From Micromonospora haikouensis (GTDB taxonomy: Bacteria; Actinomycetota; Actinomycetes; Mycobacteriales; Micromonosporaceae): 64,000 bases of DNA. Location of the stretch: assembly GCF_900091595.1 (NCBI RefSeq), contig NZ_FMCW01000001.1, positions 157,706 to 221,705 of the forward strand, written 5' to 3'. Both the position numbers and the translations under genes were made by a program. Shown here in pieces: positions 41,074 to 44,147 of this stretch (position 1 is the stretch's first letter; each line of letters opens with the position of its first letter). Below the pieces are notes generated by a model. The model was not told the DNA's origin. It made no database searches and was given only the letters and a program-made list of their open reading frames with translations.

Positions 41074-41853
41074 TCAGCCCGTCAGGGTGCCCCTCAGCAG
41101 GCTGTCGCCGGAGTGGGCGGGCTTGTTGTCGTACTGCTCGGCGGAGACGTCCAGCACCGAGTAGGTCCGGAGGTCGACGTTCGGCGGCAACGGTAGCAGC
41201 GCGTCCCCCGTGCCGGAGTTCAGCACGCCGACCGAGAACATCCGCATGGTCGCCGGGTCGATGAGCCAGACCTCGTAGTACCCCGGTACCGCCGGGAGAT
41301 TCGCCACATGCAGGTGCAGTTGGTTGTCGGTGAACACCCGGGCGTCCCCGTTGGCGTCGCGCGGCGTCGTCCCGTACGCGGTCAGGGCCCCGCTGGCCAG
41401 CACCACGCGCTCCGGTGGCCGGGGCTCGTCGGCGGAGCCCGACAGCACGGCGAAGGTGCCCACCACGCCGACCGCGGCGGCGGCTGCCGCCGTCACCGCC
41501 GTGACCGCCCAGCGGGGCAACCGGCGACGCCGCCCACCGGCCCCGCCGGGCCGCGCCGCGCCGTTCGCCGGTGTCGGGGCGGTCTCCGGCGGCCCGGCGG
41601 CGCGGCGGTCGCCGAGCGAGGGCAGCGCCTCGGCCGCCGCGACCTCCGCGACGATCCCCTGCCACACGTGCTCGGGCGGGTCGGGCAGGTCGCCCAGCCC
41701 CTGGGTGCCGGCGCCGAGGCCGGCGACGTGCCGTAGGCCGTCCACCTCGGCCCGGCAGTGCGCGCAGGCGTCGAGGTGGCGGGCCTCACCGTCGTCCGCC
41801 TCGCTCTCACCGAGCGCCAGGAAGACCAGCCGGTCGTGGTCCAGGTGCTGCAC
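41074..41853 (-). CDS. Anti-sigma factor (zf-HC2 plus RskA-type C-terminal domain)
   Basis: A 259-residue membrane protein. The cytoplasmic ZAS domain has H26-x3-C30-x2-C33 (HLDACAHC), then a Pro/Arg-rich linker, one helix (about 115-137) and an extracytoplasmic domain resembling the RskA (anti-SigK) C-terminal domain with [20 protein letters not shown]. It overlaps the sigma gene by 47 bp and should hold that sigma factor until regulated proteolysis releases it. GGGAGGTGG precedes GTG 41853. Its regulon is probably the divergent DUF4397-sortase operon. Confidence 0.88.
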
Positions 41854-42463
41854 CGTCCACCTCCCATCTGCGTTTCAGGCTCGCCATACCTCGCCGGATG
41901 TGACTCTTGACCGTCCCCAGCGGCACGCCGGTGACCGTCGCGATCTGCTGGTGGGTCAGGTCGTCGTAGAACGCCAACTCCAGCATCCGACGCTGGTCGT
42001 CGGGAAGCCGGGCCAGCTCGTCGGCCACCACCAGCCGGTCGACGACCGTGTCCGGGTCCGGGCCGGTCGGGGCCGGATCGGGCAGTTGCCGCACCGTCTC
42101 CACCACGCGGTTCTCCCGCGCGGAGGCGCGCAGCCGGTCGACGACCTTGCGCCGGCCGATGCCGAGCAGCCAGCCGATCAGCGACCCCCGGGACGGATCG
42201 AAGGTGTCCCGCCCCAGCCAGGCCGCGACGAAGGTCGCCTGGGTCACGTCCTCCGCGTCGCTGCGGTTGGCCAGCGTGCTGGTGGCCAGGTGCAGCACCG
42301 CCCGGCCGTACCGGTCGTACGCCTGGCGCAGGGCGGCCTCGTCGCCCGCGCGGAACCGCTCGGCGAGGTCGTCCTGGGGTGGTGGCTCGGGTTCCTGTTG
42401 CACCGCTGTCACCGGGCGGTTCGCCTTCCGTGGAGCATGCCCGACTGTAACCCCCGCCGTCAT
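41807..42463 (-). CDS. ECF RNA polymerase sigma factor (SigK-like)
   Basis: A 218-residue ECF sigma. Region 2: YDRYGRAVLHLATSTLANRS and DAEDVTQATFVAAWLG; region 4: FYDDLTHQQIATVTGVPLGT followed by the recognition helix VKSHIRRGMASLKRR. Its own promoter (GCATCC-N15-GGCGAA at 42540-42510) matches the one driving the divergent operon, so it is autoregulated. ATG 42463 has AAGGTGGGG a few nt upstream. The SigK-like assignment rests on the RskA-type anti-sigma partner. Confidence 0.9.
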   Translation of the reverse strand: MTAGVTVGHAPRKANRPVTAVQQEPEPPPQDDLAERFRAGDEAALRQAYDRYGRAVLHLATSTLANRSDAEDVTQATFVAAWLGRDTFDPSRGSLIGWLLGIGRRKVVDRLRASARENRVVETVRQLPDPAPTGPDPDTVVDRLVVADELARLPDDQRRMLELAFYDDLTHQQIATVTGVPLGTVKSHIRRGMASLKRRWEVDGAAPGPRPAGLPGAR

Positions 42464-42509: not shown

Positions 42510-42540
42510 TTCGCCGTCGAGGGCCCCCGTGGATGCGCCC
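42510..42540 (-). promoter_or_regulatory. ECF promoter of the sigma/anti-sigma operon
   Basis: Minus strand: GGGCGCATCC (42540-42531), 15 nt, GGCGAA (42515-42510). About 45 nt upstream of the sigma ATG. Same form as the forward promoter at 42567-42597. Confidence 0.65.
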
Positions 42541-42566
42541 GCCGGAAAGAAAAAGAAGTCGTCGGA

Positions 42567-42597
42567 GGGCGCATCCGGGGCGGCGGGAGCCGGCGTA
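42567..42597 (+). promoter_or_regulatory. ECF promoter of the DUF4397-sortase operon
   Basis: GGGCGCATCC (42567-42576), 15 nt, GGCGTA (42592-42597). About 50 nt upstream of the DUF4397 ATG. The 10-bp upstream element and the spacer length are identical to the divergent promoter. Confidence 0.65.
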
Positions 42598-42651
42598 ACC
42601 CGTTCTGCAAGCCAGGCCTGACGAACCAGCACGAACCACCAGGAGGCAGAC

Positions 42652-43485
42652 ATGCAGCTCTCGTACTTCCGTCGGGTCGCCGCGGGCGGCGCGGTCGCCG
42701 CGCTGACCTTCGCCGGTGCCGGCGCCCTCACCGCCACGCCGGCCTACGCCGCCACCAGCAAGGTCTCCGTCGTGCACGGCATCCCCGACACCCCCGTCGA
42801 CGTGTACGTCAACGGCAAGAAGACCCTCGACAACTTCAAGCCCGGCGACGTGGCCGGCCCGCTCGACCTGGAGCAGGGCGCGTACGACATCGCCCTGACC
42901 AAGCCCGGCGAGGCGCTCGACAAGGCGATCCTCACCGTCGACGACGCCGAGGTGCCGGGCGGGGCGAACATCAGCCTCGCCGCGCACCTCGACGAGGCCG
43001 GCAAGCCCAGGATCACGCCGTTCGCCAACGACACCGCCAAGGTCGACGCCGGCAAGGCCCGGCTGATCGTCCGGCACACCGCCGCCGCCCCGGCCGTGGA
43101 CGTGCGGGCCGGCGGAAAGCCCGTCTTCGAGGACCTGACCAACCCGAACGAGGCGAAGGCCGACGTCGACGCCGGCACCGTCTCCGCCGACGTGGTGCTC
43201 GCCGGCACCGACACCGTGGCGATCGGCCCCGCCGACCTGGACCTGAAGGAGGGCACCGCCACCATCGTCTACGCGATCGGCTCGGCCGAGGCCAAGAACC
43301 TCGACCTGGTCGCGCAGACCATCACCGGCCTGCACTCCGCCCCGGGCGGCGTGCCCAGCGGCACCGGCGGCCAGGCCGGCACCGGCGTGCAGACCTGGTG
43401 GTACGTGCTGGCCGGCGCCGGCGTCCTGCTGCTGGTCGGCGGCGGCGTCCGGGTGGCCGCCACGGCCCGGACGTCCCGCCGGTGA
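42652..43485 (+). CDS. DUF4397 domain surface protein with C-terminal anchor
   Basis: A 277-residue exported protein. A Sec signal peptide ends AYA-A at about residue 34, followed by two DUF4397 beta-sandwich repeats (KVSVVHGIPDTPVDVYVNGK and ARLIVRHTAAAPAVDVRAGG), then GVPSGTGG, a hydrophobic helix and a TARTSRR tail. This C-terminus resembles a degenerate LPxTG sorting signal, and the next gene encodes a class F sortase, so the pair may be substrate and enzyme. AGGAGG lies 6 nt before the ATG. It is the first gene behind the ECF promoter. Function of DUF4397 is unknown. Confidence 0.88.
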   Translation: MQLSYFRRVAAGGAVAALTFAGAGALTATPAYAATSKVSVVHGIPDTPVDVYVNGKKTLDNFKPGDVAGPLDLEQGAYDIALTKPGEALDKAILTVDDAEVPGGANISLAAHLDEAGKPRITPFANDTAKVDAGKARLIVRHTAAAPAVDVRAGGKPVFEDLTNPNEAKADVDAGTVSADVVLAGTDTVAIGPADLDLKEGTATIVYAIGSAEAKNLDLVAQTITGLHSAPGGVPSGTGGQAGTGVQTWWYVLAGAGVLLLVGGGVRVAATARTSRR

Positions 43486-44147
43486 CGGTGCGCAACCGCG
43501 GCGCGCTGGCGGCGATGGCCGCCGGCGCTGCCGCGCTCACCGTCGCCGCCGTGGTCGCCTGCGGCTCGCAGCCCGCCGAGGACGTCGGCGCGGACGACGC
43601 GGCGGCCCTGGCCGTGGCCACCGGATCGCCGGCCGCGAGCGCCCCCGGTGGCCCGTCGGTGCCGGTCACGGCCGGCGAGCTGCCCGCCGGCGACGCGACC
43701 GTGCCGCCGGTGCGGCTGCGCATCCCGGCGATCGACGTCACCGCCCGCGTCGACCCGGTCGGGGTCAACCCGCGCACCGACGAGTTCGAGGTCCCGCCCA
43801 GCGTGGACCGGATCGGCTGGTACCGGTACGGCCCCGGCCTGTCCGCCGACGCCGGGTCGGTGGTGATCGCCGGCCACGTGGACAGCGCCGAACAGGGCAG
43901 GGGGGCGTTCTTCCGGCTGCGGGAGCTGGACCGGGGCGACACCGTCACCGCCACCGGCGGCGACGGGACGACGCGCGAGTACCGGGTCGTCGCCCGCGAG
44001 GAGTACGCCAAGACGAAGATCCCGCTGGACCGGTACTTCGCCCGCGACGGCAGCCCCCGGCTCACGCTGATCACCTGCGGCGGCCCGTTCGACCCGCAGA
44101 CCCGCCGATACCGGGACAACATCGTCGTCACCGCCGTCCCGGTGTGA
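43482..44147 (+). CDS. Class F sortase
   Basis: A 221-residue actinobacterial sortase: signal/anchor at residues 7-27, then a sortase domain with catalytic His in VVIAGHVDS, Cys in LTLITCGGPFD and Arg in TRRYRDNIVVTAVP. It may anchor or process the DUF4397 protein encoded just upstream, though some class F enzymes are not dedicated to one substrate. GTG 43482 overlaps the preceding stop by 4 nt (GTG 43488 possible). A hairpin follows at 44156. Confidence 0.9.
   Translation: MTVRNRGALAAMAAGAAALTVAAVVACGSQPAEDVGADDAAALAVATGSPAASAPGGPSVPVTAGELPAGDATVPPVRLRIPAIDVTARVDPVGVNPRTDEFEVPPSVDRIGWYRYGPGLSADAGSVVIAGHVDSAEQGRGAFFRLRELDRGDTVTATGGDGTTREYRVVAREEYAKTKIPLDRYFARDGSPRLTLITCGGPFDPQTRRYRDNIVVTAVPV

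Follow-up and report, generated by a model that had tools for sequence, protein, structure and literature searches.

The gap between the start codons of an ECF sigma factor gene and a divergent gene for a DUF4397 protein (188 bp, ATG to ATG) raises the question of which regulator reads the matched sequences lying in it, and which other genes that regulator serves. The 10-mer GGGCGCATCC was found twice in the window (the whole 64-kb stretch of DNA analysed), both times inside this gap and on opposite strands, followed after exactly 15 nt by GGCGAA or GGCGTA, just as the original prediction had claimed (Table 1). The -10 box and the ATG are separated by 46 nt on the sigma side, within the 45-50 nt given in that prediction, and 54 nt on the DUF4397 side, outside that range. 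A genome scan for GCATCC-N15-GGCG[AT]A, proposed there as a check, returned 3 matches in 7.58 Mb, two of them being this pair and the third lying within a glycosyltransferase-like frame.

When the pattern was shortened to GCATCC-N17-CGWA, 11 copies were found in the 7.58-Mb genome versus 2 for the reversed pattern; GCATCC alone occurs 37 times in the window. Nine of the 11 copies lie outside the gap: four within predicted frames (L001, L083, L084, L086), two just upstream of the starts of genes counted below as targets (L087, L089), and three outside predicted frames and without target support (L085, L088, L090). The L085 copy (source genome contig 26, 1501-1527) lies about 105 nt upstream of a small secreted reading frame, and among the matches and loci examined in 41 genomes was seen only in the source genome and G006.

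Table 1. Predicted genes and sequence elements around the divergent gap, in window coordinates.
Feature	Position	Strand	Remarks
Anti-sigma factor, 259 aa, overlaps sigma gene	41074..41853	-	H26-x3-C30-x2-C33
ECF sigma factor (Sigma70_r2, Sigma70_r4_2), 218 aa, no cysteine	41807..42463	-	Pfam
Motif GGGCGCATCC-N15-GGCGAA	42540-42510	-	GGGCGCATCC at 42540-42531, GGCGAA at 42515-42510
Putative -10 element GGCGAA (core CGAA 42510-42513), sigma/anti-sigma promoter	42510..42515	-	CGAA 44/45
Putative -35 element GCATCC, sigma/anti-sigma promoter (extended 42531-42540)	42531..42536	-	Conserved in motif-free alignment
A-rich tract AAAGAAAAAGAAGT between both -35 elements	42546..42559		Moderately conserved in motif-free alignment
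Motif GGGCGCATCC-N15-GGCGTA	42567-42597	+	GGGCGCATCC at 42567-42576, GGCGTA at 42592-42597
Putative -35 element GCATCC, DUF4397-sortase promoter	42571..42576	+	Conserved in motif-free alignment
Putative -10 element GGCGTA (core CGTA 42594-42597), DUF4397-sortase promoter	42592..42597	+	CGTA 45/45 genus-group loci
DUF4397 leader	42598-42651	+	DNA ACCCGTTCTGCAAGCCAGGCCTGACGAA...; strongly conserved within genus group
Secreted DUF4397 protein, 277 aa	42652..43485	+	Signal peptide and C-terminal hydrophobic span (both by eye), RR tail
GVPSGTGG codons (residues 233-240)	43348..43371	+	67/71 relatives match pattern built on it
Class F-like sortase, GTG start overlaps DUF4397 stop	43482..44147	+	Lipobox-like VVAC 43551-43562

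On the evidence set out below, the paired sequences very probably supply the -35 and -10 elements (GCATCC-N17-CG[AT]A) for two divergent promoters recognised by the adjacent ECF sigma factor, which would also serve unlinked genes; the A-rich tract between them is a possible UP-like element. Release of the sigma factor by its membrane-bound anti-sigma factor, which carries a zinc motif and probably senses an envelope signal, would allow it to activate its own operon through CGAA (positive feedback), the DUF4397-sortase operon through CGTA (output) and genes located elsewhere, namely those for a TIGR01777 oxidoreductase and a B12-binding protein in this genome and for a fasciclin protein in many relatives. 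The claim that the sigma drives its own and the DUF4397-sortase operons agrees with matched promoters conserved in the Micromonosporaceae and beyond, but was drawn too narrowly, as it left out the unlinked targets. A promoter code that can be read from the sequence in this way names targets outside the cassette. A literature search found no promoter code for this ECF branch, although a printed motif may still exist, and nothing that joins DUF4397 to an ECF sigma factor and a sortase; DUF4397 alone returned only works unrelated by title, and fasciclin together with sortase and sigma factor only work on plant endophytes.

Conservation and gene order of the promoter loci

The best 80 of 87 matches from a search with the sigma protein were taken and gave 79 loci, in which the DUF4397 gene was divergent from the sigma gene (58), upstream on the same strand (13) or absent from the examined stretch (8). 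The 58 divergent gaps contained 110 sites with GCATCC-N17-CGWA, on both strands in 52 of them, and every other spacer from 8 to 27 yielded 0-3 sites. Shuffling the same gaps 200 times yielded a mean of 0.025 motif copies per shuffle and never more than one, which bears out the original view that such a pair is unlikely to arise by chance. The six one-sided loci all fall outside the genus group (Micromonospora, Salinispora and Verrucosispora): the absent-side site has a spacer of 18 in L057 and L059, the second site is one base off in L051 and L052, and nothing clear was seen where it was looked for in the gaps of L056 and L063.

Within the genus group, both sites were present in all 45 divergent loci, with CGAA in 44 and CGTA in 1 on the sigma side and CGTA throughout on the DUF4397 side; among the 13 divergent loci outside it, the sigma-side site was found in 9 and the DUF4397-side site in 11. 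An alignment built without reference to the motif recovered both boxes as conserved blocks separated by less conserved spacers. A further 30 best genus loci had the sigma-side site in 29 and the DUF4397-side site in 28, with GTATCC replacing GCATCC in G020, but 12 of them share their site pair with a locus of the 79 and the sample is therefore not independent. More generally, the relatives compared here are not independent, the tests ignore phylogeny, and the source genome and G006 are near-identical in places.

Loci that have lost part of the cassette were also compared. G006 encodes a sigma factor 98% identical to that of the window but lacks both promoters along with the DUF4397-sortase operon, so that the sigma gene can evidently be retained without the promoter; the sites at the TIGR01777 and B12-binding genes are still present there. 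G006, G075 and G076 are the three genomes that have a sigma match but lack any DUF4397 match. At L049, where the DUF4397-sortase operon is lost, the sigma-side site is kept and the -10 of the other site is gone. In three genomes the cassette has been lost from its place between the genes for an electron-transfer flavoprotein and a cysteine desulfurase, leaving fragments in G009 (L291), a short anti-sigma remnant in G011 (L290) and nothing recognisable in G003 (L292).

Gene order provided a further comparison. The DUF4397 gene leads and the sigma gene follows in the 13 co-directional loci; L072 begins with the sigma gene and has no DUF4397 gene. Upstream of the first gene, 12 of these 14 one-operon loci carry GCATCC-N17-[CG]G[AT]A, or 13 if CGAT is allowed; the exceptions are L066, which has CGAT, and L080, which has GCATCC with AGAA at that position. 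No site with another spacer from 10 to 25 was found in the stretches upstream of the first gene in the 14 loci, no motif copy at the sortase-sigma junctions of 12 of them, and none on the coding strand between the start of the DUF4397 gene and the end of the sigma gene in the 13 co-directional loci. One operon thus goes with one promoter and two operons with two. The -35 and the spacer accompany the cassette into the Microbacteriaceae, and the -10 is GGAA instead of CGWA in most Microbacterium loci and in Actinotalea.

Several neighbouring features were recorded in the same loci. In L068 and L069 (Pilimelia and Kineosporia), a gene that is fasciclin-like by eye replaces DUF4397 opposite the sigma gene and has the same motif on its side, and in Microbacterium kyungheense (L072) a gene judged fasciclin-like in the same manner follows the sigma/anti-sigma pair. 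Two DUF4397 genes about 1 kb apart lie beside the sigma gene in G061 (contig 1, 1627020-1628450), possibly through duplication of the output gene. A 24-base piece of the DUF4397 leader had a single match in each of 13 of the 31 genus genomes when up to 2 mismatches were allowed, and no match was seen in divergent loci from beyond the genus group.

Unlinked genes and motif copy number

The motif also stands upstream of a few unlinked genes and so appears to mark the members of a small regulon. When 41 genomes of the genus were searched with the pattern, G020 and G018 each proved to have a motif-bearing fasciclin gene. The fasciclin genes of 81 genomes were split by score into kinds A, B and C, kind C being the weakest-scoring. 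GCATCC-N17-CGAA preceded 22 of the 23 kind-C genes, found in 22 genomes, at a similar distance; the exception, L204, has GCATCT, and the 22 include L131 and L154, both of which had suggested the test. No copy was present upstream of the 36 kind-B genes scanned out of 44 (L182, L187 and L219 offered too little upstream sequence). Of the 51 genomes with a sigma match at E<=1e-60, which include G065 with an interrupted partial sigma frame, 21 had a kind-C gene, versus 1 of the 30 without such a match (Fisher p=1.8e-4). The sole sigma-less genome with a motif-bearing kind-C gene is G009, in which cassette fragments remain. No fasciclin gene was matched in the source genome.

Other candidate targets were sought among sites taken from seven sigma genomes (G000, G006, G018, G020, G023, G030, G033) and four sigma-less genomes (G004, G005, G019, G032), plus 3 sites of G016, which stands outside the seven-genome counts. 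Leaving out the cassette sites and the G033 fasciclin site gave 147 sites, of which 47 had a start codon no more than 120 nt away and a frame that looked coding, the other 100 being dropped before clustering. Among the clusters of downstream proteins, just two were shared by three or more genomes, and both are confined to sigma genomes; besides these there are five pairs, one of which (L300/L377) includes a sigma-less genome.

The first cluster consists of a TIGR01777 oxidoreductase (305 bits versus a 207-bit cut-off), whose gene carries the motif in 6 of the 7 sigma genomes (it was not seen in G033) and also in G016. The motif lies 9 nt upstream of its ATG, as for a leaderless transcript; L087, L132 and L157 are among the sites in front of this gene. 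The second is a B12-binding protein with the motif in 7 of 7 sigma genomes; it scores below the cut-offs of PF02310 and the CarH models and matches the solved cobalamin-binding protein 8jbs at E 1.7e-4. Each was 0 of 4 in the sigma-less genomes, a count of motif-bearing genes and not of gene presence. Apart from close pairs such as the source genome and G006, the spacer sequences at these sites differ between genomes. In the source genome, which has one DUF4397 gene, the two targets lie on contigs 43 and 79.

Motif copy number was also higher in genomes with the sigma factor, at 16.8 copies per genome (26 genomes) versus 10.6 without it (15 genomes; Mann-Whitney p=3.7e-5), whereas the reversed control pattern gave 4.5 and 4.7 (p=1.0); as the genomes are related, these p-values overstate the significance to an unknown degree. 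About six extra sites per genome is roughly what the proposed regulon would need, leaving one or two unexplained. Most copies of the motif at other places in the genomes are without support as promoters.

The sigma factor, its anti-sigma factor and SigK

The window sigma belongs to the ECF sigma factors (group 4), with regions 2 and 4 detected above cut-off by PF04542 and PF08281, and scored 109.7 bits against the SigK model (NCBIfam PRK09646), whose cut-off is 226. It has no cysteine, and neither do 52 of 79 translated relatives. The relevant passages of PMC7509140 assign Mycobacterium tuberculosis SigK to ECF18, describe mycobacterial sigK as autoregulated, and put the conservation of SigK cysteines 133 and 183 at 94% in ECF18 and 56% in ECF19. 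Those of PMC7406223 assign M. tuberculosis RskA to AS19-1 and print AS19 consensus strings. In the window anti-sigma factor, helices 1 and 2 bear by eye a clear likeness to the AS19-2 consensus HLDPDQLALLA / GEPLDADERAHL, and the AS19-1 helix 1 consensus HTLAGAYALDAL does not fit; the resemblance to ECF19 with AS19-2 is thus judged from two printed consensus strings only (PMC7406223). A loose helix pattern with Hx3Cx2C was passed by 66 of 78 anti-sigma relatives.

The anti-sigma factor has one probable membrane span (by eye) and a possibly RskA-like C-terminal region. It had been called RskA-like before, which suits the C-terminal domain of its relatives: of 15 aligned anti-sigmas, 14 matched PF10099 (RskA_C). 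The one exception is the window's own protein, without a Pfam match at E<=1. By these comparisons the window sigma is a SigK-like sister and not SigK. The identification as SigK proper was rejected on the score of 109.7 versus 226 bits, the other promoter code and the AS19-2-like anti-sigma.

The window circuit and the SigK/RskA regulon of mycobacteria are alike in pairing an ECF sigma with an anti-sigma of RskA type (for the window protein a possible assignment), in autoregulation (for the window sigma a probable trait, suggested by conservation and co-occurrence) and in having fasciclin as a target, a probable one in relatives. They differ in that the window sigma falls below the SigK model cut-off and is cysteine-free, and in the Hx3Cx2C motif and AS19-2-like helices of its anti-sigma. 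The earlier comparison of the -35 element to that of SigK was right in kind, the sigma being a SigK-like sister, but not in detail, for the window circuit uses GCATCC with a spacer of 17. Its probable outputs are the DUF4397 protein, the sortase, the oxidoreductase and the B12-binding protein, as against the fasciclin proteins MPT70/MPT83 of SigK/RskA.

A SigK/RskA-type circuit was recognised in Micromonospora through the kind-A fasciclin genes, 11 of 12 of which have CCATCC-N16-CGAA upstream, whereas GCATCC-N17-CGWA was found in none; conversely, CCATCC-N16-CGAA was found in 0 of 58 cassette gaps. A possible parallel to the window circuit is an RskA-like anti-sigma frame, which precedes the kind-A gene in 9 of 12 loci (a strict pattern found 1 of 12), and the sole kind-A locus read further upstream (G016 contig 20) shows by eye an ECF sigma, a sortase-like frame and a secreted partner. 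The anti-sigma helix is AS19-1-like at L170, L172 and L173, unlike the AS19-2-like helix of the window circuit, and the G016 sigma is 34% identical to the window sigma, which is also present in 11 of the 12 kind-A genomes. The sister circuits therefore differ in their codes by one -35 base and one spacer position within the same genus, a contrast well suited to testing how cross-talk between ECF factors is avoided. A wider reading, which we regard as doubtful, is that two SigK-like circuits operate in parallel, each comprising a sortase, a secreted partner and fasciclin, insulated from each other by the -35 G/C difference and the spacer of 17 or 16, and that the window's circuit also drives the CarH-like B12-binding protein and the TIGR01777 oxidoreductase and responds at the cell surface to light or photo-oxidative stress. 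The response to light would follow from these two targets, as such genes are linked to light regulons.

That the adjacent sigma factor recognises the motif is our inference from these comparisons, and it is the likely reader. It is improbable that the pair is instead the site of a different regulator or another ECF sigma factor, with the adjacent sigma gene being a target and not the reader. The seven genomes examined hold 9-17 matches each to the window sigma at E<=1e-8, the sigma gene persists in G006 without the pair, and a motif-bearing fasciclin gene persists in G009 without the sigma, all of which such an arrangement would accommodate; but motif copy number tracks the presence of the window sigma, the best-scoring paralogues are merely 33-35% identical to it, the fasciclin genes of SigK/RskA type follow the different code described above, and the -35 and spacer remain with the cassette into the Microbacteriaceae.

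Recognition by the adjacent sigma could also take place at one site only, the other being a partner site that serves spacing or a bound protein. The -35 boxes stand back to back, 34 bp apart, a distance at which two polymerases could hinder each other. We nevertheless find this very improbable, given that each site keeps its own -10 (CGAA or CGTA) across 45 loci, that one-operon loci retain a single site, and that the loss of the DUF4397-sortase operon at L049 left the sigma-side site intact and removed the other -10. Chance resemblance in a G+C-rich gap would fit the abundance of GCATCC alone and the many genomic motif copies without promoter support, but the genome, divergent-gap, genus-group and one-operon counts all speak against it, so that its probability is negligible; a chance origin of both sites was rejected on the conservation counts (110 sites versus 0.025 in shuffles).

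The DUF4397 protein and the sortase

The predicted structure of the DUF4397 protein is all-beta, with a mean pLDDT of 72.7 and values below 50 at residues 1-30 and 231-277. Foldseek returned eight matches at E<=0.001, all of them PepT1/PepT2 peptide transporters or their extracellular domains, with TM-scores of 0.25-0.45 by query length, and we therefore claim only a beta-sandwich ectodomain. No LPXTG was seen in the window protein, in which the residues before the C-terminal hydrophobic span are GVPSGTGGQAGTG. The GVPSGTGG region (GVPSGxGG) is a candidate sortase recognition region, given its recurrence in relatives (Table 1); among those that do not match, L040 keeps VPSGTGG, L020 diverges near a contig end, and L079 and L082 are without the region. 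LAxTG follows the GVPSGTGG-type region in L017, L044 and L063.

The sortase was recognised by PF04203 (68.2 bits versus a cut-off of 26.6). Of three NCBIfam matches, the class F model NF033748 was by far the best, although below its cut-off (121.2 versus 166 bits), and we therefore term the sortase class F-like. A catalytic-motif pattern was passed by 56 of 69 sortases. The window sortase presumably anchors the DUF4397 protein, which would place a class F-like sortase and its probable substrate in a defined regulon. Class F sortase genes (SrtF1-SrtF4) are likewise found in Actinoplanes missouriensis, of the same bacterial family, and the passages of PMC13251363 that describe them describe class F sortases as enzymes of unknown physiological role and report no phenotypic change in a quadruple class F deletion under the conditions used. 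According to the same passages, in which no treatment of the promoters of SrtF1-SrtF4 was found, two of these sortases adjoin possible substrates with a signal peptide, a membrane span, a basic tail and no pentapeptide motif.

A lipobox-like start was detected with a loose pattern in 53 of 69 sortases, the 16 without it including L029, read in the wrong frame; the sortase may thus be a lipoprotein. A cysteine-free stretch replaces the lipobox in a group that includes Verrucosispora L030 and Salinispora L036 and L044.
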